This document shows positions 14,551 to 44,526 of a DNA stretch of 64,000 nt, piece by piece. A model generated the notes under the pieces. The model did no database searches. It was not told where the DNA came from and saw only the letters and a program-made list of their open reading frames with translations. Position 1 is the first letter of the stretch, and every line of letters begins with the position of its first letter. The DNA is taken from the NCBI GenBank assembly GCA_019695115.1, contig JAIBAP010000004.1, positions 1-64,000 on the forward strand. Reading direction: 5' to 3'. This DNA comes from Caldilineales bacterium. GTDB lineage: Bacteria > Chloroflexota > Anaerolineae > J102. A program made the position numbers and the translations under genes.

Positions 14551-16431
14551 ATGTCAACTAGACTCCTGCTAGGAAACGAAGCCATTGGCCTGGCGCTGGT
14601 GGAGCAGGACTGCCGGGTGGTGACCGGTTATCCGGGCACACCCAGCTCCGAGATCCTGGCCGGCGTGATCAAATACAAGCAGCAACACGACCGCCAGGTC
14701 TACACCGAATGGTCGACCAACGAGAAGGTGGCCCTGGAAGTGGCGCTTGCCGCCACCTGGGTGGGGCTGCGCGCGGCCGTCACCATGAAGCAGGTGGGGC
14801 TGAATGTCGCCTCCGACCCGCTATTCAGCGCCGCCTACCTCGGCGTCAAGGCCGGGTTCCTGGTCATCGCCGCCGACGACCCCGGCCTGCACTCTTCGCA
14901 GACGGAGCAGGACTCGCGGCTGCTGGCCCTGGCGGCCAAGGTGCCGGTGTTCGACCCCTCCAGCCCAGAGGAGGCGCGGGCCATGGTCGGCGACGCCCTC
15001 TCGCTCTCCGAGCGCTTCGGCCAGCCGGTGATGCTGCGGCCCACCACCCGCATCTGTCACGCCCTGCAGAACATGGAGTTGAACGGCCTGGAACCGGCTC
15101 GGCCCGTGTCAGAGCAGCGTTTCCGCAAGGAGCCGGAACGATGGGCCTCGACGCCCAAATTTCGTTTCCGCCAGCACCTGGACCTGAACCGAAAACTGGC
15201 CGAGATCGAGAAGGAGTTCGACGCCTCGCCGCTCAATTTCGTTCATGACGCCAGCGCCAACCGGGTGGGTGTCATCACCTCTGGCGTCGCCTATCACACC
15301 ACCCTGCAGGCCCTGGAACAACTGGGGGTGCGCCTGCCCGTGCTCAAGATCGGCACGCCCTATCCCCTGCCGCGGGCGCTGGTGAGCGAGTTCATGGCCG
15401 GGCTTGAGGCGGTGATCGTGGTGGAAGAGACCGATGTCTGCATCGAGTTGCAGATGCCGGCCGGCCAGGCGACCGTGCATGGCCGGCGCAATGGCATCAT
15501 CCCCAGCGCCGGCGAACTGACGCCCGAAGTGGTGTTTGCGGCTTTCAAGGCCGTGCTCGGCCCCCTCGGCGTGGTCACCAACATACCGCCTGACGATGCC
15601 CAGTTGGGGGAGACGGTGCGCATCCTGCCCTTGCCCGTCCGCCGGCCGCGACTCTGCCCCGGCTGCGGCCATCGCTCCGCCTTCTTTGCCATGAAGCGGA
15701 CGTTCGGGCCGAAGGCGATCTATCCCGGCGACATCGGCTGTTATACCTTGGGATCGAACCTGCGGGCGGTGGACACGCTGGTGGATATGGGCGCCTCGAT
15801 CTCGATGGCGCACGGCTTCTATCATGCCAACCGCATCACCGGCGACCAGCGCCCGGTGATCGCCACCATCGGCGACTCCACTTTCCTGCACTCCGGCATC
15901 GTGCCCCTGATCAACGCCGTACACACCGGCGCCCGCTTCGTGCTGGTCATCCTCGACAACCACACCACGGCCATGACCGGGTTCCAGCCGACGATGGCCA
16001 ACGACACGCTGGCCGATGGCAGCGACGCCGCTCATAGCGTCTCGCTGGCCGGGATGGCGCGCGCCTGCGGGGCCAGGTTCGTGGTCGAGGCCGACCCCTA
16101 CCAGCACGAGAGTTTCAGCGCCCTGTTGCAGCAGGCCTACAATTTCTCGCAGTCCGAGCAGGGCGGCGTGGCCGTGATCGTCGCCGACCACCCCTGCGTG
16201 CTCTACGACAACAGCCCCATCCAGGAGCACCCGGCGCCGGTTGTGATCACCGAGGAGTGCGACGGCTGCCGTTTCTGTGTGGAAGCGTTCGAGTGCCCCG
16301 CCCTGGTGTTGGCGCCCGACCGCAGCCGTGTCAACATCGATTACAAGATCTGCGTCAATTGTGGCCAATGTATCGATGCTTGTTTCAAAGGTTTTATTGT
16401 GCCAGATCACGAAAAGGTTATTAGTTTTTAG
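14551..16431 (+). CDS. iorA: Indolepyruvate:ferredoxin oxidoreductase, alpha subunit
   Basis: This protein has 626 residues. The order is: pyruvate-oxidoreductase N-domain (TGYPGTPSSEIL near residue 25), middle domain, TPP-binding domain (CPGCGHRSAFFAM near 370, GDSTFLHSGI near 445) and a C-terminal two-cluster ferredoxin (CDGCRFC and CVNCGQCIDAC). Indolepyruvate, or phenylpyruvate, is oxidised with CoA to the arylacetyl-CoA, reducing ferredoxin. The gamma/beta partner follows at 16548. The ribosome site is weak. It makes indoleacetyl-CoA for the ring-cleavage genes downstream. Confidence 0.9.
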   Translation: MSTRLLLGNEAIGLALVEQDCRVVTGYPGTPSSEILAGVIKYKQQHDRQVYTEWSTNEKVALEVALAATWVGLRAAVTMKQVGLNVASDPLFSAAYLGVKAGFLVIAADDPGLHSSQTEQDSRLLALAAKVPVFDPSSPEEARAMVGDALSLSERFGQPVMLRPTTRICHALQNMELNGLEPARPVSEQRFRKEPERWASTPKFRFRQHLDLNRKLAEIEKEFDASPLNFVHDASANRVGVITSGVAYHTTLQALEQLGVRLPVLKIGTPYPLPRALVSEFMAGLEAVIVVEETDVCIELQMPAGQATVHGRRNGIIPSAGELTPEVVFAAFKAVLGPLGVVTNIPPDDAQLGETVRILPLPVRRPRLCPGCGHRSAFFAMKRTFGPKAIYPGDIGCYTLGSNLRAVDTLVDMGASISMAHGFYHANRITGDQRPVIATIGDSTFLHSGIVPLINAVHTGARFVLVILDNHTTAMTGFQPTMANDTLADGSDAAHSVSLAGMARACGARFVVEADPYQHESFSALLQQAYNFSQSEQGGVAVIVADHPCVLYDNSPIQEHPAPVVITEECDGCRFCVEAFECPALVLAPDRSRVNIDYKICVNCGQCIDACFKGFIVPDHEKVISF

Positions 16432-16484
16432 TTATTGGCGACGAACCGCTTAAGAAGCTGGAACACGAACTACGCTATCGGTTC

Positions 16485-16518
16485 AGGTGCGACGCACTTC
16501 TCAAAGTGCGTCGCACCT
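16485..16518. repeat. Palindromic repeat, copy 1
   Basis: This is a perfect 15-bp inverted repeat (AGGTGCGACGCACTT and its complement) with a 4-nt loop. An identical pair of arms occurs at 51393-51426. Both copies sit between adjacent co-directional genes. It is a REP/MITE-like element or a processing hairpin. Confidence 0.75.
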
Positions 16519-16547
16519 CTACGGTAACACTTACGAACTACGATCGC

Positions 16548-17099
16548 ATGGAAACGAAGATCATCATTTGTGGGCTGGGAGGTCAGGGTGTGGTCTTTCT
16601 CACCCGGCTGCTGGCCAACACCGCCCTGGCCAACGGCCATGCCGTCATGGTCTCGGAGACGCATGGCATGAGCCAGCGCGGCGGCTCGGTGCTCTCGCAT
16701 CTCAAGATCGACGGCAACCAGGCCCCCCTGATCCAGCATGGCACAGCCGACCTGCTGCTGGCGCTGGAGGTGGACGAAGCCGCCCGGCATCTCACCTACC
16801 TGCGGCCAGGCGGGATGGCCCTGGTCGATGCCGCCCAGGGGCTGCGGCCCGAACTGGACGCCGACATCGCCCGCCTGAACCTGCGCGTGCACTGTCTCCC
16901 TGCCAGCCAGATGGCGCTCGACCTGGGCGCGCCGGCGGTGGCCAACGTCATCCTGGCCGGTTTCGCCGCCGGCTTCGCCGCCATGCCCTTCTCGTTCGCG
17001 ACCCTCCGTCAAGCGCTGCAAGACGGTTCCGGCCGCAACCGCGACCTCAACCTGGCCGCGCTCGATGCGGGATTCAGGTCAGTAGTCAGTAGTCAGTAA
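16548..17099 (+). CDS. iorB: Indolepyruvate:ferredoxin oxidoreductase, beta subunit
   Basis: This is the 183-residue pyruvate-oxidoreductase gamma-type domain, starting METKIIICGLGGQGVVFLTRLL with the typical GLGGQGV loop, then SETHGMSQRGGSVLSH. It pairs with the iorA product. ATG 16548 is chosen because the fold begins there; no strong ribosome site is seen, and the palindrome lies just upstream. The last residues (SVVSSQ) are encoded by the heptameric CAGTAGT repeat that follows, so the repeat has grown into the 3' end of the gene. Confidence 0.9.
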   Translation: METKIIICGLGGQGVVFLTRLLANTALANGHAVMVSETHGMSQRGGSVLSHLKIDGNQAPLIQHGTADLLLALEVDEAARHLTYLRPGGMALVDAAQGLRPELDADIARLNLRVHCLPASQMALDLGAPAVANVILAGFAAGFAAMPFSFATLRQALQDGSGRNRDLNLAALDAGFRSVVSSQ

Positions 17100-17329: not shown

Positions 17330-18208
17330 ATGCCTCCCTTCCACCACCATACGCCCACCACCCTGACCGAGGCCATCGGCCTGCTGGCCCAGGCCAACGG
17401 CAGCGCCCAGGTCATCGCTGGCGGCACCGACCTGGTCTTGCAGATGCGCAACGGCCTGAAGGCCCCGCAGACGGTGATCAACATCAAGCGGCTGCCTGAG
17501 TTGAAGGGCATCGAGTACGACGAGGCAACCGGCCTGCGGCTGGGGGCGCTCACCACCCTGCGCCAGATCCACCGCTCGCCCCTGATCCAGACCCACTACC
17601 CCATCCTCTCCCACGCCGCCAGCCAGATGGCCTCGGAGCAGATCCGGGCCTTCGCCACCGTCGGCGGCAACCTTTGCAACGGCTCCCCCTCCGCCGACCA
17701 GGCCACGCCGCTGCTGGCCCTGGACGCCAGCGTGCACCTGGTCGGGCCGCAGGGGATGCGGGCGCTGCCGCTGCACGAGTTCTTCCTCGGCCCCGGCCAG
17801 ACGGCTCTGCGCCCCGGCGAACTGTTGCAGTGGATCAGCGTCCCCCCCCTGGCCGGCCAGGCGATCTTCCTCAAGCACATCCCGCGGGCGTTCATGGATA
17901 TTTCGGTGGTGTGCGTGGCCCTGCGGCTGGCGATGGCGGAGGACCTCTGCCAGGAAGCGCGCATCGTCCTGGGCGCGGTGGCCCCCACCCCGCTGCGAGC
18001 GCGGCAGACCGAGGCCCTGTTGACCGGCCAGGCCCTGACGCCAGAGCGCATCCAGGCGGCAGCCGGGACGGCGGCGGTAGAAAGCCGGCCCATCGACGAC
18101 GCCAAAGGCTCGGCCTGGTATCGCCGGCACATGGTCGGGGTGCTCGTGCGCCGCGGCCTCAGCGCCCTGGGAGGCCGGGCGGGAGGCCGGGCGGGAGGCC
18201 GAGCATGA
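17330..18208 (+). CDS. Molybdenum hydroxylase, FAD subunit
   Basis: This 292-residue subunit is of the xanthine dehydrogenase family (CoxM-like). FAD-contact motifs AGGTDLVLQM (about 31-40) and ATVGGNLCNGSPSADQATPLL (about 108-128) are present. It lacks the extra cysteine insert of 4-hydroxybenzoyl-CoA reductase HcrB, which favours an oxidative hydroxylase. The C-terminus ends in a threefold GGRA tail from three 12-bp repeats. It overlaps the next gene by ATGA. It is part of the proposed indoleacetate ring-hydroxylating enzyme. Confidence 0.85.
   Translation: MPPFHHHTPTTLTEAIGLLAQANGSAQVIAGGTDLVLQMRNGLKAPQTVINIKRLPELKGIEYDEATGLRLGALTTLRQIHRSPLIQTHYPILSHAASQMASEQIRAFATVGGNLCNGSPSADQATPLLALDASVHLVGPQGMRALPLHEFFLGPGQTALRPGELLQWISVPPLAGQAIFLKHIPRAFMDISVVCVALRLAMAEDLCQEARIVLGAVAPTPLRARQTEALLTGQALTPERIQAAAGTAAVESRPIDDAKGSAWYRRHMVGVLVRRGLSALGGRAGGRAGGRA
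18169..18204 (+). repeat. Three 12-bp tandem repeats at the gene end
   Basis: GGGAGGCCGGGC occurs twice exactly and a third time with one change, in frame at the C-terminal end of the FAD subunit gene and directly ahead of the next start codon. It also provides the GGAGG-like ribosome site for the 2Fe-2S subunit. Confidence 0.8.
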
Positions 18209-18660
18209 AGAAAGCCATCACCCTCACCGTCAACGGCGACCGCCGCGAGTTATACGTGGCCACGCACCACAGCCTGCTGGATGTGATCCGCAACGAACTG
18301 GGGCTGATGGGCACGCACCGCGGCTGCGACACCGGCAATTGCGGCGCCTGCACCGTGCAGGTGGACGGTCTGGCCATGAACGCCTGCCTGCTCCTGGCCG
18401 TGGACTACGACGGCAGCGACATCCTCACCATCGAGGGCGTGGCCCAGGAGGGCGCACTGCACCCGGTGCAGCGGGCGCTGGTCGAGAAAGGCGGCATCCA
18501 GTGCGGCTTCTGCACCCCCGGCATGGTCATGAACACCCTCGCCCTCCTCGCCGACGACCCACACCCCACCGAAGCCGACATCCGCGCCCGCCTCTCCGGC
18601 AACCTCTGCCGCTGTACGGGATACGCTAAGATCGTCGAAGCAATCGTTAGTGGTCAGTAA
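18205..18660 (+). CDS. Molybdenum hydroxylase, [2Fe-2S] subunit
   Basis: The 151-residue protein has both clusters of this family: plant-type cysteines 41, 46, 49 and 61 and the second set C100-x2-C103 with C135-R-C137. It transfers electrons from the Mo centre to FAD. The start overlaps the FAD subunit stop (ATGA). The protein ends VSGQ, where the last codons look like the heptameric CAGT repeat seen in the gaps. Confidence 0.92.
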   Translation: MKKAITLTVNGDRRELYVATHHSLLDVIRNELGLMGTHRGCDTGNCGACTVQVDGLAMNACLLLAVDYDGSDILTIEGVAQEGALHPVQRALVEKGGIQCGFCTPGMVMNTLALLADDPHPTEADIRARLSGNLCRCTGYAKIVEAIVSGQ

Positions 18661-18672
18661 TCAGTGACACCC

Positions 18673-21084
18673 ATGTCTTCCCACATCGGCCAGCGCCTGC
18701 CCAAACTCGATGCGCCGGACAAAGCCGCCGGACGGGCCACCTATGGCCACGACGTGCGTCTGCCCGGCCTGCTGCACGGCAAAATCCTCTACTCCGCCCA
18801 CGCCCACGCCCGCGTCGTGCGCGTGGACGCCTCCCGCGCCGAACGGCTGCCCGGCGTCAAGTGCGTGCTCACCGCCGCCGACAATCCCCCCACCCATTTC
18901 GGCTACGGCAAGGACCAGACCGCCTTCAAGACCATCGCCCGCAGCCGCCGGGATGAGATCGCCGCCGTGGCCGCGGTCGACCCGGATGTGGCTGCCCAGG
19001 CCCTCAGCCTGATCGAGGTGGAGTACGAACCACTGCCCGCCCTCTTCTCTGTGGCCGCAGCCCTGGCCCCCGGCGCCCCCCTCATCCACCCCGAACATGG
19101 CTCCAACCTCTTCCAGACCTATCGCTACGAGCACGGCGACCTGGCCCGCGGCGAAGCCGAATCGGACCTGATCCTGGAAAGCCGCTATCATCTCCCTTAT
19201 GTCAATCACGCCTGCATGGAGACGAGCGTGGTCGTGGCCCACTACGAGCAGGGCGGCCGCCTCACCCTGTGGAGCACCACCCAGATCCCCTTCCTCTTGC
19301 AGCGCGACCTGGCCGAGGCCCTGGGCATCCCCGGCAGCCAGATCCGCATCATCCAGACCGCCATCGGCGGCGCCTTTGGCCGCGGGCTGGACATCTACCC
19401 CTTCGAGCCGATCGCGGCCCTGCTGTCGCTACGCAGCGGCCGGCCGGTGCGGGTGGCCTTTTCGCGGCGGGAGGAATTCCTGGCCGGCCCCGCCCGCCAA
19501 CCGGCCGAGGTGCTCATCCGCGCCGGCGCCCGGCGGGATGGCCGCCTCACCTTTCGCGATGTGTCCACCGCCCTCGACATCGGCGCCTACGTCTCGTGGG
19601 GGTCGGTGACGCCGCTGGTGATGATGGAGACCACCGCCTCCCTCTACAAAATCCCGCACGTGCGCTTCCAGGCCGACTGCATCTACACCAACAACCTGGT
19701 CACCGGGGCCATGCGCGGCTACGGCAACCCCCAATCCACCTTTTTCGTGGAGACGATGATGGATCGGTTGGCCGAGGCCCTGGGCATGGACCCGGTCGAA
19801 TTCCGTCTGATCAACGCCAACGAACCCAACAGCACCACCCCGCAGGGCCTGGTGATCACCTCCTGCGGCCTGAAAGAGTGCCTGCAAGCCGTCGCCGCCG
19901 CCGCCGACCGCCCGGCCGCCGCGCGGGGCCGGGCGGTCGGCGGCGGCCAGACCGCGGCCCACGGGCCTGAACCCACGCCGCAAGCAGCGCAGCCCAACTC
20001 GCTCAAACGCGGGGTGGGCTTCGCCGCCACCCTCAACGTCGGCGGCGGCGCCCGCATCTACCGCAGCGACGGCTGCGGGGCCACGGTCAAGGTCGATGAC
20101 TTCGGCCACGTCACCCTCATCACCGGCTCCACCGAGATCGGCCAGGGGTCGGAGACGGTGCTGGCCCAGATCGTGGCCGAGGCGTTGGGCGTGCAGCCGC
20201 AGGAAGTCGCGGTCGTCAACAGCGACACCGACATCAAACCCTGGGATGTGGGCGTGCACGCCAGCCGCACCACCTTCATCGCCGGCAACGCCGCCCACCT
20301 GGCGGCGCTGGACGCCCGCAGCCAGATCTTCGAGACCGCCGCCGAGATGCTCGGCGTCAGCCCCGACCGCCTGACCGCCAGCGATGGCCGCATCCGTCTG
20401 GCCGACGCGCCCGACGCGCCCGCCCTGCCCCTCTCGCGCGTGGTGCGCCAGCGCCACTTCCGCCAGGGCGGGCAGATCGTGGTCGGCGAGGGCTGGTACG
20501 ACCCGCCCACCCAGATGGTGGACAAGGACACCTACAAGGGCAACATCTCTGCCGCCTATGGCTTCGGCGCTCAGATGGCCGAGGTGGAGGTGGATGAGGA
20601 GACCGGGCGGGTGCGCGTGCTGCGCCTGGCCTGCGCCAACGATATCGGCCGGGCGATCAACCCCATGGCCGTCGAGGGCCAGATCGAAGGCGGCGCGCAG
20701 ATGGGGCTGGGCTACGCCCTCTCGGAAGAGCTGATCGTGGCCGACGGCCAGGTGCTGAACCCCGACTTCCACCACTACCGCCTCTTCACCGCCGCCGACA
20801 TGCCCGAGATCGAGACCATCCTCGTCGAAACCGACGACCCCGGCGGGCCTTACGGGGCCAAAGGCGTGGGCGAGATGGGCGGCACGCCCACCGCCGCCGC
20901 CATCGCCAACGCCATCTACGACGCCACCAAAGGTGGCGCCGCCTCCAAAGGTGGCGCCGCCTCCAAAGGTGGCGCCGCCTCCAAAGGTGGTGGCGCCGCC
21001 ATTGGCATCCGCCTGACCGAGCTGCCCATGACCCCCGAACGGGTCTTGGCCGCCATCCTCCAACGCGACCAGGAGACCGCATGA
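18673..21084 (+). CDS. Molybdenum hydroxylase, molybdopterin subunit
   Basis: This is the 803-residue large subunit of the xanthine dehydrogenase family. Mo-site features include GGAFGRGLDIYPFE near residue 235, AMRGYGNPQSTF near 350 and the catalytic-Glu loop GAKGVGEMGG near 730. It should hydroxylate a heteroaromatic ring carbon with water-derived oxygen. With neighbouring hydantoinase and mutase genes, C2 hydroxylation of indoleacetate or its CoA ester is the best guess. ATG 18673 is chosen; GTG 18664 is possible. A KGGAAS repeat lies near the C-terminus. It overlaps the aminotransferase start. Confidence 0.85.
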   Translation: MSSHIGQRLPKLDAPDKAAGRATYGHDVRLPGLLHGKILYSAHAHARVVRVDASRAERLPGVKCVLTAADNPPTHFGYGKDQTAFKTIARSRRDEIAAVAAVDPDVAAQALSLIEVEYEPLPALFSVAAALAPGAPLIHPEHGSNLFQTYRYEHGDLARGEAESDLILESRYHLPYVNHACMETSVVVAHYEQGGRLTLWSTTQIPFLLQRDLAEALGIPGSQIRIIQTAIGGAFGRGLDIYPFEPIAALLSLRSGRPVRVAFSRREEFLAGPARQPAEVLIRAGARRDGRLTFRDVSTALDIGAYVSWGSVTPLVMMETTASLYKIPHVRFQADCIYTNNLVTGAMRGYGNPQSTFFVETMMDRLAEALGMDPVEFRLINANEPNSTTPQGLVITSCGLKECLQAVAAAADRPAAARGRAVGGGQTAAHGPEPTPQAAQPNSLKRGVGFAATLNVGGGARIYRSDGCGATVKVDDFGHVTLITGSTEIGQGSETVLAQIVAEALGVQPQEVAVVNSDTDIKPWDVGVHASRTTFIAGNAAHLAALDARSQIFETAAEMLGVSPDRLTASDGRIRLADAPDAPALPLSRVVRQRHFRQGGQIVVGEGWYDPPTQMVDKDTYKGNISAAYGFGAQMAEVEVDEETGRVRVLRLACANDIGRAINPMAVEGQIEGGAQMGLGYALSEELIVADGQVLNPDFHHYRLFTAADMPEIETILVETDDPGGPYGAKGVGEMGGTPTAAAIANAIYDATKGGAASKGGAASKGGAASKGGGAAIGIRLTELPMTPERVLAAILQRDQETA
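20929..21000 (+). repeat. 18-bp coding tandem repeat
   Basis: Three exact 18-bp units and a fourth altered one, in frame, encode KGGAAS repeats inside the Mo subunit, between its final helix region and the last 35 residues. Each unit contains the GGTGGCGCC palindrome core. This is a likely slippage site for length variation. Confidence 0.85.
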
Positions 21085-22196
21085 CCGCGCCCCGCCTGAA
21101 CCCGAACCTCCTCAGCCTCCCCACCTATGTCGCCGGCAAATCGGTCGATGAAGTCAAGGAGGAGTTGGGGCTGGCCGAAATCATCAAACTGGCCTCGAAC
21201 GAAAGCCCGATCGGGCCATCGCCGCGGGCGATTGCGGCCGCGCGGGCCGTGCTGGATCAGGCCCATCGCTACCCTGGCGGGCTGGGCCTGACCTTGCGCC
21301 GCACCCTGGCCCGGCGCATCGATCGCGGCCTGCACGAGGACAACTTCATGCTCGGCAATGGCGGCACCGACATCCTGCGACTGATCACGCAGGCTTTTGT
21401 CTTCGATGGCGGCAACACGGTGATGGGCCGCGCCACCTTTCCCATGTACAAGATCTTCACCACCATGTTCAACGGCGAGCCGCGCCTCACGCCGCCCTGC
21501 TCCGACTACCGCCAGGATCTCGACGCCATGGCCGCGGCCATCGACGCCGACACTCGCCTCGTCTTCCTCTGCTCGCCCAACAACCCCACCGGCCACACCA
21601 TCTCGCAGCGCCAGGCGGAGCGATTCATGGACCGCGTGCCGCCGCACGTGGTGGTCGTATTCGATGAATCCTATTTCGAGTATGTCGATGACCCAGACTA
21701 TGCCGACAGCCTGAGTTTTCTGCACCAGGGTCGCCCGGTGCTGATCGTGCGCAGCTTCTCCAAGGCCGGCGGGCTGGCCAACATGCGGATCGGCTATCTG
21801 ATCGGGCCGGTCGAGCTGGCGAACTATGTCAGCCGCGCCAAAGCCCCCTTCCACACCGGCGATGTCTCGCTGGCCGCGGCCCTGGCCAGCCTGGACGACG
21901 CCGACTTCATCGCCCGGCAGACGCAGGCGGTGCAAGAGGGGCGCCGCTATCTGTACGAAGCCCTGACCGGCCTGGGTCTGCACTGCCTGCCCTCGCAGGC
22001 CAATTTCGTCACCTTCTACGACCCGCCCCTGCCGGCCGAGGCCCTGACCGCGGCCCTGCTCCGCCGCGGCTTCATCGTCCGGGCTATGGCCGGCTTCGGC
22101 ATGCCCAACGCCGTGCGCGTCAGCGTGGGCAGCCCGTATGAAAATGCTGCTTTCATCGCCGCCCTGACCGCCATCCTGACCCCAGTCCCCGCCTGA
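21081..22196 (+). CDS. HisC-like PLP aminotransferase (probable aromatic aminotransferase)
   Basis: This 371-residue class I/II aminotransferase has PLP lysine K228 in RSFSKAGGLANMRIGY, CSPNNPTG at about 164 and the AFGMPNAVRVSVG-type C-terminal Arg segment. It resembles histidinol-phosphate aminotransferases, a group that includes aromatic amino acid aminotransferases. It is translationally coupled to the Mo hydroxylase (ATGA) and no other his gene is nearby. By context it probably makes indolepyruvate or phenylpyruvate from the amino acid. Confidence 0.8.
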   Translation: MTAPRLNPNLLSLPTYVAGKSVDEVKEELGLAEIIKLASNESPIGPSPRAIAAARAVLDQAHRYPGGLGLTLRRTLARRIDRGLHEDNFMLGNGGTDILRLITQAFVFDGGNTVMGRATFPMYKIFTTMFNGEPRLTPPCSDYRQDLDAMAAAIDADTRLVFLCSPNNPTGHTISQRQAERFMDRVPPHVVVVFDESYFEYVDDPDYADSLSFLHQGRPVLIVRSFSKAGGLANMRIGYLIGPVELANYVSRAKAPFHTGDVSLAAALASLDDADFIARQTQAVQEGRRYLYEALTGLGLHCLPSQANFVTFYDPPLPAEALTAALLRRGFIVRAMAGFGMPNAVRVSVGSPYENAAFIAALTAILTPVPA

Positions 22197-22206: not shown

Positions 22207-22644
22207 ATGAATTATGTCAAGCACATCGAACGCGTCGCCCTGGCCGTGCCCAACCTGGAGGAAGCGCAGACCTTCTTCGAGACCTGGTTCGGGGCCGTCT
22301 TCATGCCAGAAGAGATCATCGAGGACATGGGCATCCGCTACCGCCCCTTCCAGGTAGGCGGCAGCCGCATGGAACTGCTGGAGCCGACCCGCGACGACAG
22401 CCCCGTGGCCCGTTTCCTGGCCCACAACCGCGGCCCCGGCGTCCACCACATCACCTTCGAGGTGGATGACCTGGACGCGGCCGTGGCCGAGTTGGAGCGC
22501 CGCGGGGGGCGCATCGCCTATCGCCACACCTACGCCGAGGGCGTGACCTTCGAGGGCAAGGTCTGGCGCGAGGCCTTCGTCCACCCCAAAGATGCCTTTG
22601 GTGTGCTTATCCATCTGGCCGAAAAGCGCCCCGCCCCACAATAA
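22207..22644 (+). CDS. VOC-fold epimerase, methylmalonyl-CoA epimerase-like
   Basis: This 145-residue glyoxalase-fold protein begins KHIERVALAVPNLEEAQTFFE; metal ligands are likely in GVHHITFEVDDL and the terminal FVHPKDAFGVLIHLAE. Methylmalonyl-CoA epimerases invert the alpha carbon of malonyl-CoA-type thioesters. Beside a split B12 mutase, it probably epimerises (2-aminobenzyl)malonyl-CoA or its succinyl isomer; ordinary methylmalonyl-CoA is the alternative. Confidence 0.8.
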   Translation: MNYVKHIERVALAVPNLEEAQTFFETWFGAVFMPEEIIEDMGIRYRPFQVGGSRMELLEPTRDDSPVARFLAHNRGPGVHHITFEVDDLDAAVAELERRGGRIAYRHTYAEGVTFEGKVWREAFVHPKDAFGVLIHLAEKRPAPQ

Positions 22645-22763: not shown

Positions 22764-23948
22764 ATGTCAAGCACCCCGCTCTCCCTCACCATCCTCTCCC
22801 TCGAACAGGCCACCATCCTGCCCTTCATGACCCTGCGGCTGGCCCTGGAGGGCGCCCGCGTGATCCGGGTGGAAGCGCCCCCGCGCGGGGATCCCAATCG
22901 CTGGGTGGGGCCGGAGGTGATCGCCGGGGAGGGCGGCATGAACGCCTACTTCCTGCCCCACAACCTGGGCAAAGAGGCGATCACCCTCGACCTGGGCAGC
23001 GCCGGCGGCCGGGCCTTGCTCCACCGCCTGATCCGCGAGCTGCCGGTAGATGTCTTCGCCACCAATCAGCGCCCGCGCAGCTACCAGAAGTTGGGCATCG
23101 ACTACGAAACCCTGGCCGCTCTCAAGCCCGACCTGATCTGGCTGGGCATCACCGGCTTTGGCCCGGACAACGACGAGGCCGCCTACGACCCGGTCTTGCA
23201 GGCCCGCGCCGGCTTCATGGAACTGACCGGCGAAAAAGCGGGCGAGCCGATGGTCTTCGGCCTGCCGATGGTAGATTTGGGCGCCGGCGAGCACGCCTAC
23301 GGCCAGGTGATGAAGGCCCTCTACCAGCGCGCGCACAGCGGCGAGGGCTGCCGCATCGACATCTCCATGTTCCAATCCGCCCTCTCCTGGATGAACTCGC
23401 CCATCCTGCTCAGCCAGAGCTTTGGCCTGCCCACCACCCGGCACGGCAACACCCACCCCTTCTTTGCACCCGCCTCGGTCTATCCCGCCGCCGATGGCTA
23501 CCTCTACCTGGCCGTGGGCAACGACCGCCAATGGGCGGCCATCGCCGAACTGCCCGCGTTCGCCGGTCTGGCCCGCGCCGACTACGCTCGCAACGCCGGT
23601 CGCATCGCCGACGTCGGCGCCCTGAACCAGAGCATCGCCGCCATCACCCGCACGCAGCCCACCGCCGCCTGGATCGAGACCTTCAACGCCCTCGGTGTGC
23701 CCGCTGCCCGCGTCAACACCCTGCCCGATGTCTGCGCCGACCCCTTGCTGGCCGGCCGCATGGTGCGGGCGACCGACCCCCGCTCCGGCCTGGAGATCGC
23801 CATCCCGCCGCCGCCGGTCATCCCCGCGCCGTTGCAGGGCCAGGGGCTGCGGGTGGGCTTCCCGCCCCGGCTGGGCGAGCACAACGCCGCCATCTTTGCC
23901 AGCCTGGGCCTGGATGCCGCCCAACTCGCCGCCGAAGGAGTGATCTGA
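22764..23948 (+). CDS. Family III CoA-transferase
   Basis: This 394-residue protein is of the formyl/succinyl-CoA transferase family (CaiB/BaiF), with the catalytic Asp at about D142 in AAYDPVLQARAG and the N-terminal EGARVIRVEAPPRGD motif. It moves CoA between carboxylic acids. In the anaerobic auxin pathway a family III phenylsuccinyl-CoA transferase (IaaL) activates (2-aminophenyl)succinate; the neighbours make the same role likely here. The stop overlaps the acyl-CoA dehydrogenase start by one base. Confidence 0.85.
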   Translation: MSSTPLSLTILSLEQATILPFMTLRLALEGARVIRVEAPPRGDPNRWVGPEVIAGEGGMNAYFLPHNLGKEAITLDLGSAGGRALLHRLIRELPVDVFATNQRPRSYQKLGIDYETLAALKPDLIWLGITGFGPDNDEAAYDPVLQARAGFMELTGEKAGEPMVFGLPMVDLGAGEHAYGQVMKALYQRAHSGEGCRIDISMFQSALSWMNSPILLSQSFGLPTTRHGNTHPFFAPASVYPAADGYLYLAVGNDRQWAAIAELPAFAGLARADYARNAGRIADVGALNQSIAAITRTQPTAAWIETFNALGVPAARVNTLPDVCADPLLAGRMVRATDPRSGLEIAIPPPPVIPAPLQGQGLRVGFPPRLGEHNAAIFASLGLDAAQLAAEGVI

Positions 23949-25093
23949 TGGATTTCGCCCTCTCTGCCGAACAAATCCGCTTCCGCGAGGCCGTGCGCCA
24001 GTTCACCGCCCGCGAGGTGGCCCCCGCCGCCCGCGAGATGGACGAACGAGCCGAGTTTCCGCAGGCGTTGTTCCAGCGCTGCGCGGCCAACGGCTATTTC
24101 GGCCTGCGCTATCCCGAGGCCGTGGGGGGGATGGAGGCCGATTTCCTCACCTATTGCCTGATGATCGAGGAGTTGGCGGCCGGTTCGCTGGCCCTGGCCT
24201 CGATCGTGGCCATGCAGACGCTGATGGGCACCGATCTGGTCTTCCGCTTTGGCACGGATGAGCACCGCGCTCGCCTGATCGAGCCGGCGTTGCGGGGGGA
24301 GAAGATCGGAACCATCGCCATGACCGAGCCGGATTTCGGCTCCGACCTGGGCGGGATCACCACACGGGCCGAGCGCAGCGGCGAGGGCTGGGTGATCACC
24401 GGGCGCAAGATGTGGATCACCTCGGCCACGGTGGCCGATTTCTTCAGCGTGGCGGCCAAAACCGACCCGACCGCCGGGTTCAAGGGCATCGATTTCTTCC
24501 TGGTGGAGAAGGGCATGCCGGGCCTGAGTGTGGGCCGGCGCATCGACAAGCTGGGCGTGCGCGCCTCCGAGACCTCGGAACTGATCCTGGATGGGGTGCA
24601 GGTGCCGGCCGCCCATCTGCTGGGGCAGCAGGGCACGGGCTTCCGCAACCTGGGCGCCATCCTCACCCAGATCCGGGTGATGACGGGGGCGCTGGGGCTG
24701 GGGCTGGGCCAGGCGGCGCTGGATGCCGCCATCCGCTACGCCAATGAGCGGGCGCAGTTCGGCAAGCCCATCGCCACATACCAGGCCGTGGCCCACAAGA
24801 TCGCGGAGATGGGCACGCGGCTGGAGGCGGCGCGCACGCTGGTCTACCGGGCGGCCTGGGACATCGACCAGGGCCGCCGCGACAACACCCTGGCCTCGAT
24901 GACCAAGCTCTTTGCCACCGAAACCGCCAATTTCATCGCCGACGAATGCACCCGCATCTTCGGCAGCTATGGCTTTGCCATGGAATACGACGCCCAGCGC
25001 TACTACCGCGACGCCCGCTTCCTGCTCTACGGCGGCGGCACCTCCGAGATCCTGCGCACCATGATCGCCCGCGACCTGACCGAAGCCCGCTAG
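23948..25093 (+). CDS. Acyl-CoA dehydrogenase family, catalytic Glu absent (benzylmalonyl-CoA dehydrogenase-like)
   Basis: This is a 381-residue flavoprotein with the full three-domain acyl-CoA dehydrogenase layout: IAMTEPDFGSDLGGI near 120, WITSATVADFF near 155, ERAQFGKPI near 268. The usual YEGTSEI base is replaced: the segment reads LYGGGTSEIL, so Gly (about G363) stands where the catalytic Glu should be. I see no Glu at the alternative isovaleryl-CoA dehydrogenase position either. A decarboxylating enzyme acting on (2-aminobenzyl)malonyl-CoA (IaaF type) would make its carbanion by losing CO2 and would not need that base. Confidence 0.85.
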   Translation: MDFALSAEQIRFREAVRQFTAREVAPAAREMDERAEFPQALFQRCAANGYFGLRYPEAVGGMEADFLTYCLMIEELAAGSLALASIVAMQTLMGTDLVFRFGTDEHRARLIEPALRGEKIGTIAMTEPDFGSDLGGITTRAERSGEGWVITGRKMWITSATVADFFSVAAKTDPTAGFKGIDFFLVEKGMPGLSVGRRIDKLGVRASETSELILDGVQVPAAHLLGQQGTGFRNLGAILTQIRVMTGALGLGLGQAALDAAIRYANERAQFGKPIATYQAVAHKIAEMGTRLEAARTLVYRAAWDIDQGRRDNTLASMTKLFATETANFIADECTRIFGSYGFAMEYDAQRYYRDARFLLYGGGTSEILRTMIARDLTEAR

Positions 25094-25105: not shown

Positions 25106-25504
25106 ATGACTGACAAACCCATCCGCGTGCTGATTGCCAAACCGGGGCTTGACGGCCACGACCGCGGGGCCAAAGTCGTGGCCCTGGCCCTGCGCGACGC
25201 CGGCTTCGAGGTCATCTACACCGGCCTGCACCAGACCGTCGAGCAAATCGTCGAGGCCGCCATCCAGGAAGATGCGGACGTGATCGGCCTCTCGATCCTC
25301 TCCGGCGCCCACCTGCCCATCTCGGCCCGGCTGATGGAGCGATTGCGGGCCGAGGGCGTGGACGACAAGCGGGTGATCGTGGGCGGCAACATCCCCGCCG
25401 CCGACATCCCCGCCCTCCAATCCCTGGGCGTGGCCGGCGTCTTCCCCAGCAGCAGCCGGTTCGAGGAGATTGTGGGGTTTATTCGTGGGAGTGGTGGTTA
25501 TTAG
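25106..25504 (+). CDS. B12-binding small subunit of an acyl-CoA mutase
   Basis: The 132-residue cobalamin-binding domain has the base-off motif D16-G-H18-D-R-G21, the later [10 protein letters not shown] and the VGGNIP loop. It works with a separately encoded large subunit (25740). Split mutases include isobutyryl-CoA, hydroxyisobutyryl-CoA and the auxin-pathway (2-aminophenyl)succinyl-CoA mutase (IaaGH). It follows the dehydrogenase by 12 nt with GAGGAG upstream. Confidence 0.9.
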
Positions 25505-25739: not shown

Positions 25740-27341
25740 ATGTCAACCAAAACCCGCCCCGTCATCCTCGAATCAGGCATCCCCGTCCAGCCGGTCTACG
25801 GGCCGGAGGACATCGGCGGGGGCGAAGCGCCGCCGGGCATCGGCCGGCCGGGTGAGTTCCCCTTCACCCGCGGCATCCACCCGCTGATGTATCGCCAGCG
25901 CCCCTTCACCATGCGCCAGTACGCCGGGTTCGGCACACCCGCGGCCACCAACGAACGCTTCAAATTCCTGATCGAAAACGGCCAGACCGCGCTCAACGTC
26001 GCCTTCGACCTGCCCACGCAGATGGGGCTGGACTCGGCCGACCCCCTGGCCGAGGGCGAAGTGGGGCGGGTGGGCATGGCGGTGGATACCTTGGCCGACA
26101 TGGAGGTGGCCTTCGCCGGCATCCCCATCGACCGCATCAGCGTCTCGCTGACCGTGAACGCGGTGGCCGCGCCGATCATGGCCATGTATTTCGTCGTGGC
26201 TGAAAAACACGGCCTGCCTCTGGCCGAAGTGCGCGGCACGGCCCAGAACGACATCCTCAAAGAACACATCGGCCGCGGGGCCTGGGTCTTCCCGGTGGAG
26301 CCGGGCGTGAAGCTGATCGGCGACACGATCGAATTCTGCGCCCGCCAGGCGCCCAAATACTACCCCGTCTCCGTCTGCGGCTACCACATCCGCGAATCGG
26401 GCGCGCACCCGGTGCAGGAGATCGCCTACGCCTTCGGCATCGCCCAGGAATACATCCGCCGCGGGCTGGCCCGCGGGCTGGCCGTGGACGAATTCGCCGG
26501 CCAGATCTCCTTCAATTTCGACATCTTCGGCAATTTCTTCGAGCAGATCGGCAAATTCCGGGCGGCGCGGCGGCTGTGGGCCAGGCTAATGCGGGACGAA
26601 TTCGCCGCCCAGGACCCGCGCACCATGCAGATGAAGATGATCGCCGGCGGCGGCGGCGGCGGGCTGACCATCGAGCAGCCAGAGAACAACATCGTGCGCG
26701 GGGCCTACTACGCCCTCATCTCCGCCCTCTCTGGCACGCAGACCATGGCCCTGTGCAGCTACGACGAGGCCTACACCATCCCCACCGAAAAGGCGGCGCT
26801 GATCTCGCTGCGCACGATGCAGATCCTGATCGAAGAGATGGGCGTGGGCGACACCGTGGATCCGTTGGGCGGCGCCTACTACGTGGAATGGCTGACGAAC
26901 GAGATGGAGAACCGCATCGTGGCCGAGATGCAGCGGGTGCAGAGGCAGTGGGGCGGCATCGTGCCGGCGGTGAGCGAGGGCCTCATCCAGTCCGAGGTGG
27001 CGCGACAGGCCTATGAGAGCGAGCGCAGAATGCAGGCGGGCGAGATCGCCAAGGTGGGCGTCAATCGCTACCGCATGGAGGAGGAGGCGCGGGAGGTGGA
27101 GATGCACCCCTACCGCGGCGAGGATGCCGAGGAATCGATCCGCCGCACCGCCCAGGTGAAGGCGGGGCGCGAGGCCGAAGCCGTGGCCGCGGCCCTGGCC
27201 CAACTGCACGCTGACGCCGCCGCCGGCCAGAACACGATGCCGGCGCTGATGGCCGCCGTGCGCGCCTACGCCACCCTGGGCGAGATCATGAGCGTGCTCA
27301 AGGGCGTTTACGGCGTCTTTCGCGAGCCTGTACGATTATGA
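25740..27341 (+). CDS. Acyl-CoA mutase large subunit (methylmalonyl-CoA mutase N-domain family)
   Basis: The 533-residue TIM-barrel subunit has YRQRPFTMRQYAGFGT (about 48-63), AFDLPTQMGLDSADP and AQNDILKEH as in methylmalonyl-CoA mutase. There are Phe and Met where methylmalonyl-CoA mutase usually has Trp and Ile (PWTIRQYAGF), so the acyl pocket differs and a bulkier substrate is plausible. There is no B12 domain; the partner is at 25106. By context it interconverts (2-aminophenyl)succinyl-CoA and (2-aminobenzyl)malonyl-CoA. ATG 25740 follows the repeat and lacks a good ribosome site. Confidence 0.85.
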   Translation: MSTKTRPVILESGIPVQPVYGPEDIGGGEAPPGIGRPGEFPFTRGIHPLMYRQRPFTMRQYAGFGTPAATNERFKFLIENGQTALNVAFDLPTQMGLDSADPLAEGEVGRVGMAVDTLADMEVAFAGIPIDRISVSLTVNAVAAPIMAMYFVVAEKHGLPLAEVRGTAQNDILKEHIGRGAWVFPVEPGVKLIGDTIEFCARQAPKYYPVSVCGYHIRESGAHPVQEIAYAFGIAQEYIRRGLARGLAVDEFAGQISFNFDIFGNFFEQIGKFRAARRLWARLMRDEFAAQDPRTMQMKMIAGGGGGGLTIEQPENNIVRGAYYALISALSGTQTMALCSYDEAYTIPTEKAALISLRTMQILIEEMGVGDTVDPLGGAYYVEWLTNEMENRIVAEMQRVQRQWGGIVPAVSEGLIQSEVARQAYESERRMQAGEIAKVGVNRYRMEEEAREVEMHPYRGEDAEESIRRTAQVKAGREAEAVAAALAQLHADAAAGQNTMPALMAAVRAYATLGEIMSVLKGVYGVFREPVRL

Positions 27342-28145: not shown

Positions 28146-30224
28146 ATGCGCCTCGGCTGTGATATCGGCGGCACCTTCACCGATTTCGTGCTCTTGGACG
28201 ACGCCAGCGGCGAAATGCACGTCTACAAATGCCTGACCACGCCCGGCGATCCCTCGGACGCGGTGGAAGAGGGCGTGCGGGCGCTGTCCGCGCGCCTCCC
28301 CGACCTGGCCAGGCGACTGCAAGAGGTCATCCACGGCACCACGCTGGTGATCAACGCCATCATCGAGCGCAAAGGCGCGGTCACCGCCCTGCTGACCACG
28401 GCGGGCTTCGGCGATGTGCTGGAGATGGGCCGCGAAATCCGCTACGCACCCTACGATATCTTCGCCGAATTTCCGGAACCGCTCGTCCCCCGCCACCGCC
28501 GACTAGAAGTGCGGGAGCGGGTGCGGGCCGACGGCAAGGTGCTGATCCCCCTGGCGGAGGAGGAGGCGCGGGCCGTCGTCCGCCATCTCCCCGGCCTGGG
28601 CGTGGACTCCGTGGCCGTCTGCCTGCTCAACTCCTTCGAGAACCCGGCCCACGAGCTGGCGCTGAAACAGATCGTCCAGGAAGAGCTGCCCGGCCTCTCC
28701 CTCTCCATCTCCTACGAGGTGCTGCCGCAGATCCGCGAGTACGAGCGCACCAGCACCACGGTCGCCAATGCTTATGTCAAGCCGCTGGTCGAACGCTACC
28801 TGCGCCGGCTGTCCGGGCGCCTGGCCGGGCTGGGCTTTGCCGGGCGCCTGTTCATCATGCTTTCCAGCGGCGGCGTCACCTCGGTCGAGACCGCGGCGGA
28901 GTTCCCGGTGCGGATCATCGAATCTGGCCCGACGGCGGCGGTCATCGCCGGAGAATATTTCAGCCGTCTGTTTGGGATGCCGGAGATGTTTTGCTTCGAT
29001 ATGGGCGGCACGACGGCCAAATCCTGCCTGATCCAGGACGGACAGGCGGGCGTGGTGCCGACGTTCGAGGTGGGGCGGGTGCAACGCTTTATGAAAGGCA
29101 GCGGCCTGACGATTCAAGTGCCGGTGGTGGATTTGATGGAGATCGGCGCCGGCGGGGGGAGCATCGCCCACGTCAGCCGGATGGGCACCCTGCAAGTGGG
29201 GCCAGAAAGCGCCAGCGCCGTCCCCGGCCCGATCTGCTACGGGCGGGGCGGCGCGCAACCCACCGTCACCGACGCCGATCTGCTGCTCGGCTACCTGGAC
29301 GCGGCTTACTTTCTGGGGGGCGCAATGTCCCTGGACGCGGAGGCTGCCCGGAAAGGGATCGAGACCCAAATTGCCGAACCCCTGGGCGTCTCGTATTTGC
29401 AGGCGGTGTGGGGCATCCACGATCTGATCAACGAGACCATGGCCGCAGCGGCGAAAACACACATCGCCGAACGGGGCGGCAACCCCCGGCTGGTCACAGT
29501 GGCCGCGTTCGGGGGCGCGGGGCCGGTGCACGCCTACGGACTGGCGCGCAAACTGGGCGCGCCGCGCGTCGTCGTCCCGCCCAACGCGGGGGTGGGGTCG
29601 GCGCTCGGGTTTTTCACCGCCCCGCGCGCCTTCGATCTGGTGCGGAGTCACAAAGTCCCGCTGGCGAGTGCGGATTTCCACGAGATCGAACGCCTTTTCC
29701 GCACCATCGAGGCGGAGGGCGAAAGGACGCTACGAAGAGCCGGGGCCATCGAACCCATCGTTTACACCCGCTCGGTGGATGCGCGGTTCGTCGGGCAGGG
29801 TTCGGAAACCAACCTGCCCCTGCCGGACGGCGATTTCGGCACGTTCACCCCGGAGACGCTGCGCCGCCGGTTCGACGAAGGGTACGAGAAACTGTATGGG
29901 CGCACCTACCCGGAGATTCCGGTGGAGTTCGTCAACTTCCGCGTGCGGGCGAGTTTGCCGATCCAATTGCTGGAGTTGCCCCGTTTGCAGACGAACAGGC
30001 AAGGTTCGAACGCGGCGCGGAAAGGCGAACGGCTGGCGTACTCCGGCCTGGCGGGGGGCTTCATCCCCTTTGCCGTCTACGACCGCTACCTGCTCCCGCC
30101 CGGCGCCGCCTTCCCCGGCCCGGCCATCATCGAGGAGCGGGAGTCCACCGTGATCGTGGGCGAGGACGCGCGGGCGCGGGTGGATGAGTTTGGGTTTTTG
30201 TGGATGGAGTTGGAGGGCGCATGA
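28146..30224 (+). CDS. Hydantoinase/oxoprolinase A subunit (ATP-dependent lactamase)
   Basis: The 692-residue protein begins with the actin-fold ATP motif CDIGGTFTDF (residues 5-14); HGTTLVINAIIERKG, FDMGGTTAKSCL near 285 and GGAGPVHAYGLARKLG near 460 are typical of HyuA. The family hydrolyses cyclic amides, often using ATP. Next to a heteroaromatic ring hydroxylase and CoA-transferase, opening of the oxindole lactam to (2-aminophenyl)succinate is the likely job, as for the hydantoinase-like enzyme of the iaa pathway. ATGA overlap with subunit B. Confidence 0.88.
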   Translation: MRLGCDIGGTFTDFVLLDDASGEMHVYKCLTTPGDPSDAVEEGVRALSARLPDLARRLQEVIHGTTLVINAIIERKGAVTALLTTAGFGDVLEMGREIRYAPYDIFAEFPEPLVPRHRRLEVRERVRADGKVLIPLAEEEARAVVRHLPGLGVDSVAVCLLNSFENPAHELALKQIVQEELPGLSLSISYEVLPQIREYERTSTTVANAYVKPLVERYLRRLSGRLAGLGFAGRLFIMLSSGGVTSVETAAEFPVRIIESGPTAAVIAGEYFSRLFGMPEMFCFDMGGTTAKSCLIQDGQAGVVPTFEVGRVQRFMKGSGLTIQVPVVDLMEIGAGGGSIAHVSRMGTLQVGPESASAVPGPICYGRGGAQPTVTDADLLLGYLDAAYFLGGAMSLDAEAARKGIETQIAEPLGVSYLQAVWGIHDLINETMAAAAKTHIAERGGNPRLVTVAAFGGAGPVHAYGLARKLGAPRVVVPPNAGVGSALGFFTAPRAFDLVRSHKVPLASADFHEIERLFRTIEAEGERTLRRAGAIEPIVYTRSVDARFVGQGSETNLPLPDGDFGTFTPETLRRRFDEGYEKLYGRTYPEIPVEFVNFRVRASLPIQLLELPRLQTNRQGSNAARKGERLAYSGLAGGFIPFAVYDRYLLPPGAAFPGPAIIEERESTVIVGEDARARVDEFGFLWMELEGA

Positions 30225-31885
30225 AATTCGACCCCATCACCCTCGAAATCCTTTGGCGACGGCTGCTCTCCATCGTCGATGAGGCGGACGCGGCGGTGGC
30301 GCGCACGGCTTTCTCCAGCGTTTTGCGCGACGCCCATGACTATACCTGCATGTTCACCGACCGGCAGGGGCGGGAACTCGTGCAAGGGACGTTGGCCACG
30401 CCCGGCCAGAGCGGGGCCATGGCCCTGGGCATCAAAAAACTGGTGCAGAGCATCCCCGCCCACACCTTCGCCGAGGGCGATGTGTTCATCACCAACGACC
30501 CCTGGGCGCTGGCCGGACACCTGAACGATATTTGCGTCTTCAGCCCCATTTTCCACCACGACCAGCTGGCCGCGTTCACCGCCTGCGTGCTGCACCATGC
30601 CGACATCGGCGGGCGGATAGCGTCCGACAACCACGACGTGTTCGAGGAAGGACTGTTCATCCCCCTGGTCAAGCTGTACGACGCCGGCCAGCTCAACCAG
30701 GCCGTGCTGGACCTGATCCGCTGGAACGTGCGCACGCCGGAGAATGTGATCGGCGACATCCGCGCCCAAATCGCGGCCAACCATGTCTGCGCGCAGCAGG
30801 TGCGGCGGATGCTGGAGGAGTACCATCTGGCCGGGCTGGACGAGCTGGCAGAGGAGATCATCGCCCGCAGCGAGGCCAGTGTGCGCGGGGCCATCGCCCA
30901 GACGCCGCCGGGAGTTTACCGGGCCGAGGGCCGGATCGAGCAGATGGCGGGCCGCGACGACCTGGTGATCCGGGCGGCAGTGGAGGTGCGGGGCAGCGAT
31001 CTTTTCATCGATCTCAACGGCTCCTCGCCGCAGGTGGATTGGGGCGGGAATGTGGTCTTCAACTTCACTTACGCCTATGTCCACACGGCGATCAAAAGCA
31101 TCTTCGACCCCGATTTGCCGAACAACGAGGGGGCTGCCGCGCCCATTCACCTCACCGCGCCCGAAGGCACGGTGGTCAACTGCCGTTTTCCGGCGGCGGT
31201 GGCCGCGCGCATGCAGATCGGTCACTTCCTGACCGAAATCATCTACCGCGCCCTGGCCCCGGCCCTGCCCGACCGCGTGCTCGCGGCCAGCGGCGGCACG
31301 CCGGCCACCATGACCGTGTTCTATGGCCGCGGCCACGACCGCCGGCCCTTCCACGCCGTGCTGATCCGCGGCGGCGGCATGGGCGCCAGCGCCCGCGGGG
31401 ATGGGGCCGGCTGCTTCATCTTCCCGGCCAACGGCGCCAACACCCCGGTGGAGATCCTGGAGAGCGACACCCCCCTGGTCTTCGAGCGGCGGGAACTGAT
31501 CCCCGATTCGGGCGGCGCCGGCGAGTTCCGCGGCGCCCTGGGCCGCCGGGCGGTGATCCGCGTGCCCGACGACGAGACCGCGCCCCTGCCGCCGGTGACT
31601 TTGGGCGTGCAATCGGGCCGCTTCCGCCTGCCGCCGGAAGGATTGGCGGGCGGGCAGCCGGGCCGCTGCGCCCGCTTCCTGGTCAACGGCGTTCCCGGCG
31701 ACCCCTACGGCCTGACGCGCTTGCAGCCGGGCGATGTGGTGACGCTGGAAGGCGCGGGCGGGGGCGGCTATGGCGATCCCCAGCGCCGCCAGCCGGAACG
31801 GATCGAAAAAGACCTGCACGAAGGCAAGATCACGCCCGCAGGCGCGCAGCGAAACTACGGTTTCGGTGTTTCTAAATCATCGTAA
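30221..31885 (+). CDS. Hydantoinase/oxoprolinase B subunit
   Basis: This 554-residue HyuB protein starts MKFDPITLEILWRRL; VFITNDPWALAGHLNDICVF (about 88-107) and HHADIGGR (about 126) are the family hallmarks, with a C-terminal GGGGYGDPQRR. It forms the second half of the ATP-dependent ring-opening enzyme with the preceding gene. Start chosen at ATG 30221, which overlaps the subunit A stop; a GTG frame extension upstream lies inside subunit A and is rejected. Confidence 0.88.
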   Translation: MKFDPITLEILWRRLLSIVDEADAAVARTAFSSVLRDAHDYTCMFTDRQGRELVQGTLATPGQSGAMALGIKKLVQSIPAHTFAEGDVFITNDPWALAGHLNDICVFSPIFHHDQLAAFTACVLHHADIGGRIASDNHDVFEEGLFIPLVKLYDAGQLNQAVLDLIRWNVRTPENVIGDIRAQIAANHVCAQQVRRMLEEYHLAGLDELAEEIIARSEASVRGAIAQTPPGVYRAEGRIEQMAGRDDLVIRAAVEVRGSDLFIDLNGSSPQVDWGGNVVFNFTYAYVHTAIKSIFDPDLPNNEGAAAPIHLTAPEGTVVNCRFPAAVAARMQIGHFLTEIIYRALAPALPDRVLAASGGTPATMTVFYGRGHDRRPFHAVLIRGGGMGASARGDGAGCFIFPANGANTPVEILESDTPLVFERRELIPDSGGAGEFRGALGRRAVIRVPDDETAPLPPVTLGVQSGRFRLPPEGLAGGQPGRCARFLVNGVPGDPYGLTRLQPGDVVTLEGAGGGGYGDPQRRQPERIEKDLHEGKITPAGAQRNYGFGVSKSS

Positions 31886-36235: not shown

Positions 36236-36320
36236 AAAAAATCACCTTATTGACAGCCGGGCAGTTTTCTGTATACTAAATATGACGCAGTTTTCTGACG
36301 ATGCTAATATTAATGGAGCA
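36231..36320 (+). promoter_or_regulatory. Promoter/operator of the benzoyl-CoA reductase operon
   Basis: TTGACA (36250-36255), 16-nt spacer and TATACT (36272-36277) precede bzdN. The segment aligns gap-free with 11993-12082 (about 64 of 90 identical). ATGCT-N11-AGCAT (36301-36321) is a candidate operator overlapping the predicted transcript leader, which makes repression by a regulator such as the nearby PaaX-family protein possible. Confidence 0.75.
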
Positions 36321-36326
36321 TGTGCC

Positions 36327-37493: not shown

Positions 37494-37700
37494 GTTTGTT
37501 ATGGAGATTGGTTATTGGAGATTGGTTATTGGAGATTGGTTATTGGAGATTGGTTATTGGAGATTGGTTATTGGAGATTGGTTATTGGCTCACGCATCAC
37601 GCATCACGCATCACGCATCACGCATCACGCATCACGCAACACGCAACAGGCAAAATCCGGGCCTAAAACCCATCAGTTTCTTTATTCAAGGTAAGTTATC
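37494..37700. repeat. Heptameric repeats (AGATTGG/TTATTGG and CACGCAT)
   Basis: Ten or more 7-nt units alternate GTTATTG and GAGATTG (37502-37590), then seven CACGCAT/CACGCAA units (37591-37645). The array separates bzdN from bzdO. No gene is seen; the ribosome site AAGGTAAG for bzdO is at its end. Confidence 0.88.
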
Positions 37701-38981: not shown

Positions 38982-38986
38982 CCTTC

Positions 38987-39008
38987 GTGCGCATCTGGGG
39001 ATGCGCAC
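38987..39008 (+). other. Hairpin and short GCGCACTCC repeats
   Basis: GTGCGCATC pairs with GATGCGCAC around TGGG, beginning 6 nt after the bzdO stop, followed by three imperfect copies of GCGCACTCC-type units to 39050. A possible mRNA processing or stabilising element between bzdO and bzdP. Confidence 0.5.
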
Positions 39009-39078
39009 TCCGCAGGGTTGCGCACTCCACAAGGTTGCGTACCCCGCACCCTCTCACCCCCACGAAAGGAGCACCCAC

Positions 39079-39891: not shown

Positions 39892-39971
39892 CCATGACGT
39901 GCATGATCCGCCCATCCGAGCCATCCGCCCACCCCCGCCCTCTGCCCAACACGGAGGCTTGACCATGACGT
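39868..39971 (+). repeat. Duplicated bzdP/bzdQ junction with decoy start
   Basis: A 33-bp segment covering the end of bzdP, a GGAGG site and the ATGACGT start occurs twice (39868-39900 and 39939-39971), with one mismatch and a 71-bp offset. It leaves a 22-codon mini-ORF (39894-39962) with its own ribosome site, ending 2 nt before the bzdQ ATG. Confidence 0.8.
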
Positions 39972-41946: not shown

Positions 41947-41977
41947 CAAACGCTTTTCGCCGAAAAGGAACGAATCC

Positions 41978-43108: not shown

Positions 43109-43213
43109 ATTAGTGATTGGTGATTGGTTATTAGCTATTGGTTATTGACGCTTGGCAAACGAATCACCAATCACCAATCTCCAATCTCCAATCTCCAATA
43201 ACCAATTAAAACC
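43109..43213. repeat. Heptameric TTATTGG/CCAATCT array, both orientations
   Basis: GTGATTGG/TTATTGG units run to about 43147, then the complementary CCAATCT/CCAATAA form to 43206, giving an imperfect inverted repeat between oah and dch. Confidence 0.85.
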
Positions 43214-43978: not shown

Positions 43979-43999
43979 ACTCATCGAGGAGATGCTGCT

Positions 44000-44443: not shown

Positions 44444-44524
44444 TGATTGGAGATTGGAGATTGGCGATTAGCGGCAAGATCAATAACCAATCTCCAATCT
44501 CCAATAACCAATAAACGGAGAACC
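44440..44524. repeat. Heptameric GATTGGA array, both orientations
   Basis: AGATTGG units (44444-44463) and the complementary CCAATCT/CCAATAA units (44487-44513) lie between the MaoC and SDR genes; the CGGAG ribosome site for the SDR lies just after. Confidence 0.8.
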
Positions 44525-44526
44525 AC

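Follow-up and report, generated by a model that had tools for sequence, protein, structure and literature searches.

How can an acyl-coenzyme A (CoA) dehydrogenase (ACAD) act on its substrate once the catalytic glutamate is missing? This question is raised by a gene in a 64,000-nucleotide stretch of DNA, here called the window, which spans positions 1 to 64,000 of contig JAIBAP010000004.1 from a Caldilineales bacterium of the Chloroflexota (assembly GCA_019695115.1). The original prediction had proposed that the gene encodes a decarboxylating (2-aminobenzyl)malonyl-CoA dehydrogenase (IaaF), and phylogeny, motif and operon content all support this identity. We estimate a probability of about 0.9 that the protein is an IaaF orthologue, which most likely performs base-free oxidative decarboxylation of (2-aminobenzyl)malonyl-CoA to 2-aminocinnamoyl-CoA. 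The enzyme type and its proposed mechanism were published in 2021, and the novelty lies only in the new member. The sequence, predicted fold, clade, motif conservation and operon described here come from this analysis. The gene and its key codons are as follows.

23948..25093, + strand: iaaF, a Glu-less (GGG) ACAD, predicted from Pfam, motif and tree to be a decarboxylating (2-aminobenzyl)malonyl-CoA dehydrogenase
25031..25039, + strand: Gly362-Gly363-Gly364 codons, which align with the Tyr-Glu-Gly motif

The reading frame encodes 381 amino acids, and its N-terminal, middle and C-terminal Pfam domains all score well over their cut-offs. No gap is needed to align the C-terminal active-site stretch, RDARFLLYGGGTSEIL, with the usual RDAR..xIYEGTSEI, solved relatives included, and Gly362-Gly363-Gly364 then falls on Tyr-Glu-Gly. 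The motif therefore arose by two substitutions (Tyr to Gly362 and Glu to Gly363) and not by an insertion; Tyr361 lies one position upstream of the normal motif tyrosine. The glutamate is thus missing as predicted, and the predicted residue number, G363, was exact. Isovaleryl-CoA dehydrogenase (IVD) and the long-chain acyl-CoA dehydrogenases have an alternative base site, which we take to be the residue before the conserved helix arginine, here Arg243. In the window protein the alignment puts Ile242 there, which agrees with the earlier statement that this site holds no glutamate. Among the other ACADs of the same genome that can be aligned at the motif, six retain the glutamate and one (C15:88000) lacks it and carries an IVD-type glutamate instead (LNAER). 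An AlphaFold2 model of the monomer, built without cofactor or substrate, reached a predicted local distance difference test score of 94.9 and a predicted TM-score of 0.93. Its TM-scores against short-chain, medium-chain and glutaryl-CoA dehydrogenases were 0.94-0.97 (about 0.96 for the short-chain enzyme), and the modelled ACAD fold is intact, as had been claimed.

We assembled 47 distinct clade sequences, picked by similarity in a genome-contig scan and whole-genome searches; 23 of them are included in the tree. They come from five phyla: Chloroflexota, Acidobacteriota, Planctomycetota, Pseudomonadota and the phylum of a Syntrophobacteraceae metagenome-assembled genome (MAG). Residues 362 and 364 are glycine in every member, and residue 363 is glycine in 46 of the 47 and alanine in the other, so that G363, whose conservation had been raised as a question, is conserved here as it is in print, where GGG replaces YEG in Aromatoleum aromaticum IaaF and in every orthologue aligned by Schühle et al. 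(PMC8360864). Residue 242 is isoleucine in all members except one, which has valine. Because conservation at 363 and 242 is clade-wide, the loss of the glutamate is neither chance nor a sequencing error. The clade-specific invariant residues include Arg54-Tyr55, Gln90, Asp332 and Arg336. In a maximum-likelihood tree, the window protein fell into a 26-row clade together with the IaaF proteins of Aromatoleum toluolicum and a betaproteobacterium (support 98/91), all of them Glu-less. Its best named relative, at 93-94% identity, comes from a Caldilineales MAG, and a plasmid search returned nothing over 60% identity.

The biochemistry behind our reading comes from the A. aromaticum enzyme, which converts benzylmalonyl-CoA to cinnamoyl-CoA by oxidative decarboxylation, is enantiospecific and releases no phenylpropionyl-CoA (Schühle et al. 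2021, PMC8360864). A base-free decarboxylating mechanism was proposed in the same paper, and the missing glutamate was restated in 2024 (PMC11659651). By analogy with this homologue, the substrate, the decarboxylation and the base-free mechanism are most likely those of the window protein as well. The original suggestion that no base is needed when loss of CO2 supplies the electrons had therefore already been published (PMC8360864), and we infer the same for the window protein. In the putative sequence of events, a B12-dependent mutase would convert (2-aminophenyl)succinyl-CoA to (2-aminobenzyl)malonyl-CoA. IaaF would then expel the alpha-carboxylate from C2 as CO2 while the C3 hydride passes to flavin adenine dinucleotide (FAD), giving 2-aminocinnamoyl-CoA, which would enter beta-oxidation. 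Electrons from decarboxylation would replace those of glutamate-driven proton abstraction, and the Gly-Gly-Gly stretch, without the tyrosine and glutamate side chains, would provide space for the alpha-carboxylate and prevent deprotonation.

Several points weigh against this reading. The catalytic activity of the window protein is one that we infer from the homologue, and its identity to Rhodocyclaceae IaaF is low, at about 50%. The Aromatoleum reference was A. toluolicum IaaF, standing in for A. aromaticum WP_011236983. The mechanism in print was itself proposed on the basis of motif and kinetics (PMC8360864), and no active-site mutant or structure of IaaF was found in that paper. Moreover, a predicted model without bound substrate leaves room for a base from another structural element.

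The genes around iaaF, all on the + strand, form an iaa-type locus that looks complete for the breakdown of tryptophan or indoleacetate.

14551..17099, + strand: IorAB, indolepyruvate:ferredoxin oxidoreductase-type alpha and beta subunits, predicted source of indoleacetyl-CoA
17330..21084, + strand: xanthine-dehydrogenase-type hydroxylase, predicted from profiles and context to yield 2-oxoindoleacetyl-CoA
17330-18208, 18208-18660 and 18664-21084, + strand: FAD, iron-sulfur (FeS) and molybdenum (Mo) subunits of this hydroxylase, respectively
21081..22196, + strand: HisC-type aminotransferase (TIGR01141 over cut-off), predicted from context to act on tryptophan or aromatic substrates
22207..22644, + strand: methylmalonyl-CoA-epimerase-like protein, two genes before iaaF, predicted (2-aminobenzyl)malonyl-CoA epimerase
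22764..23948, + strand: family III CoA-transferase, IaaL-like, predicted (2-aminophenyl)succinyl-CoA transferase (PF02515, context)
25106..25504, + strand: B12-binding small subunit of a carbon-skeleton mutase, IaaG/H-like (TIGR00640 of NCBIfam), conservedly adjoining iaaF
25740..27341, + strand: mutase large subunit (profile and context)
28146..31885, + strand: hydantoinase A/B-type subunits (PF01968/PF05378/PF02538; conserved), predicted 2-oxoindoleacetyl-CoA gamma-lactamase

The stop codon of the CoA-transferase overlaps the iaaF start, and the B12 mutase that had been noticed beside the dehydrogenase is present as both subunits. The large subunit is separate from the three other mutases of the genome (46-49% identity) and is 61-63% identical to the iaaF-adjoining mutases of A. 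toluolicum and a betaproteobacterial MAG, both Pseudomonadota. In A. toluolicum, one run of genes holds hydantoinase A/B, iaaF, both mutase subunits, the xanthine-dehydrogenase-type subunits and the CoA-transferase, and the window has the same genes. The two hydantoinase-type subunits would suit the role of 2-oxoindoleacetyl-CoA gamma-lactamase, a function named in PMC5214803. IorAB scored 641.7 bits against TIGR03336, below the cut-off of 650.9. No CoA ligase was recognized between 14.5 and 31.9 kb of the window; together with IorAB and the aminotransferase, this suggests entry from tryptophan through indolepyruvate to indoleacetyl-CoA. The genome encodes three electron-transferring flavoprotein (ETF) pairs, one of them about 11 kb past the end of the window on the same contig (C4:75016-76490).

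A conventional ACAD with a relocated base, as in the isovaleryl-CoA and long-chain enzymes, would also lack the motif glutamate, and such relocation is known among ACADs (PMC8360864). The residue preceding the IVD-type site, 241, is indeed acidic in 34 of the 47 clade members (Glu in 32, Asp in 2). However, the remaining 13 have glutamine, the window protein among them (Gln241), and since glutamine is tolerated there, residue 241 is improbable as the base; in the window sequence, Gln241 makes a shifted acidic base unlikely. This pattern at residue 241 is a nuance not found in PMC8360864. A base at the IVD-type position itself was rejected, given Ile242 in the window protein and Ile or Val in 47 of 47 members. 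The sole acidic residue that is both clade-specific and conserved is Asp332; it shares a predicted helix with Arg336, which is equally clade-specific and lies four residues further on, so Asp332 more likely forms a salt bridge. We therefore regard a relocated base as very improbable.

It is also very improbable that the window protein is a Glu-less ACAD with another leaving group or another malonyl-CoA-type substrate, such as a different aryl- or alkyl-malonyl-CoA. The clade is able to diversify, as a tandem paralogue beside iaaF in two loci illustrates (L024 and L026; 47% identity, YGAGTQT/YGGGTQT), but the window operon carries the full iaa set, and the protein scored only 252.3 bits against the desulfinase model NF042439 of NCBIfam, whose cut-off is 600. 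Loss of the catalytic glutamate by itself would look alike in a degenerate, non-catalytic enzyme; with the frame and predicted fold intact, strong conservation in five phyla and a constant operon, we give this explanation hardly any credence.

Other Glu-less proteins were observed around the IaaF clade. Its sister group (L063:1501-2634, L066:1492-2631) has AGGTNDIM or GGGTSDIM and an aspartate at the IVD-type position (IDR or VDR). A second Glu-less ACAD directly follows iaaF in L024 (11193-12326) and L026 (11193-12314), is 47-49% identical to the window protein, carries YGAGTQT or YGGGTQT and is followed by a second xanthine-dehydrogenase-type gene set. In L047 and L072, this second type adjoins CoA-transferase and xanthine-dehydrogenase-type genes, and it possibly serves a parallel pathway for another substrate. 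Some loci were seen with 1.5 kb flanks only, and their operon context is partial. Within such flanks, no small mutase subunit was recognized beside four more distant Chloroflexota members (L087-L090), which may act on a different substrate. Long open frames in L060 and L062 resembled an IaaF-mutase fusion. Fusion was discarded for L070, which is at the same place as L062, and for L027, as IaaF is followed there by a stop codon.

The epimerase-like protein scored 101.8 bits against TIGR03081, below the cut-off of 114.95. The gene occurs in most Anaerolineae-type loci (77-93% identity) and is absent from the fetched Aromatoleum, Acidobacteriota and Planctomycetota loci and from L024 and L026. 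A second epimerase-like protein of the genome, 33% identical, lies beside another mutase on contig C75. Because benzylmalonyl-CoA can be epimerized by a methylmalonyl-CoA epimerase and IaaF uses one enantiomer (PMC8360864), a dedicated (2-aminobenzyl)malonyl-CoA epimerase is plausible in the window locus.

Further genes flank the locus. A TrpB-like pyridoxal-phosphate enzyme is encoded at 12119-13555, just upstream of IorAB (NF009057 and TIGR01415 over cut-offs). After the hydantoinase genes, ATPase and permease genes at 31928-35253 resemble an energy-coupling factor (ECF)-type transporter, and a small membrane protein without a Pfam match (32072-32662) could be the substrate-binding component of such a transporter. 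Genes of the benzoyl-CoA reductase type lie 5 kb downstream of the iaa-type cluster.

36282..40819, + strand: benzoyl-CoA reductase class I-like subunits (C-, B-, A/Q- and D-like), all below the NCBIfam equivalog cut-offs for benzoyl-CoA reductase
41930-43108, + strand: Oah, 6-oxocyclohexene-carbonyl-CoA hydratase (TIGR03200 over cut-off)
within 41930..47734, + strand: dienoyl-CoA/enoyl-CoA hydratase (dienoyl-CoA hydratase model below cut-off), short-chain dehydrogenase/reductase and thiolase
46715-47734, + strand: Had-like dehydrogenase (Had model below cut-off)

All but Oah score under the equivalog cut-offs for the benzoyl-CoA pathway, so their assignment to a substrate is tentative. We speculate, at even odds, that some Chloroflexota carry a complete anaerobic tryptophan route in one locus, comprising the aminotransferase, IorAB acting without free indoleacetate, the molybdenum hydroxylase, the lactamase, the CoA-transferase, the B12 mutase, a dedicated epimerase feeding the stereospecific IaaF and the class I-like benzoyl-CoA reductase. 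If so, (2-aminobenzyl)malonyl-CoA epimerization would have no described counterpart in the Aromatoleum pathway. The epimerase and IorAB suggest variations of that pathway, namely a stereochemical fix ahead of IaaF and entry from tryptophan rather than free auxin. A literature search, which did not extend to the 2012 and 2016 pathway papers, found no paper joining indoleacetate, Chloroflexi and benzoyl-CoA. A rare base-free ACAD type, with biochemistry from one Proteobacterium, is here extended to Chloroflexota and several other phyla, with glycine kept at the glutamate position almost without exception.

Compared with known systems, the window protein resembles A. aromaticum IaaF in GGG for YEG, the ACAD fold, an iaa operon with mutase and CoA-transferase, and its clade (via A. 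toluolicum IaaF). It differs from Aromatoleum IaaF in being about 50% identical and in having Gln for Glu at 241, while its operon adds the epimerase gene, IorAB and the aminotransferase and, in the part examined, has no recognized CoA ligase. The characterized IaaF, benzylmalonyl-CoA dehydrogenase (BMal), is a homotetramer with FAD that does not use ETF and passes electrons to O2 or another acceptor. Glutaryl-CoA dehydrogenase shares the fold and the oxidative decarboxylation predicted for the window protein, but it keeps the YEG glutamate (Gly363 in the window) and oxidizes first, losing the gamma-carboxylate afterwards (PMC8360864). The isovaleryl-CoA and long-chain acyl-CoA dehydrogenases likewise lack the glutamate in the YEG motif, but they have one just before the helix arginine, where the window protein has Ile242. 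Finally, 3-sulfinopropionyl-CoA desulfinase is another ACAD without the glutamate (it has AGG), and a leaving group is likewise expelled in its reaction; it differs in losing sulfite (PMC8360864) and in its gene context, and the window protein lies far under the NF042439 cut-off.
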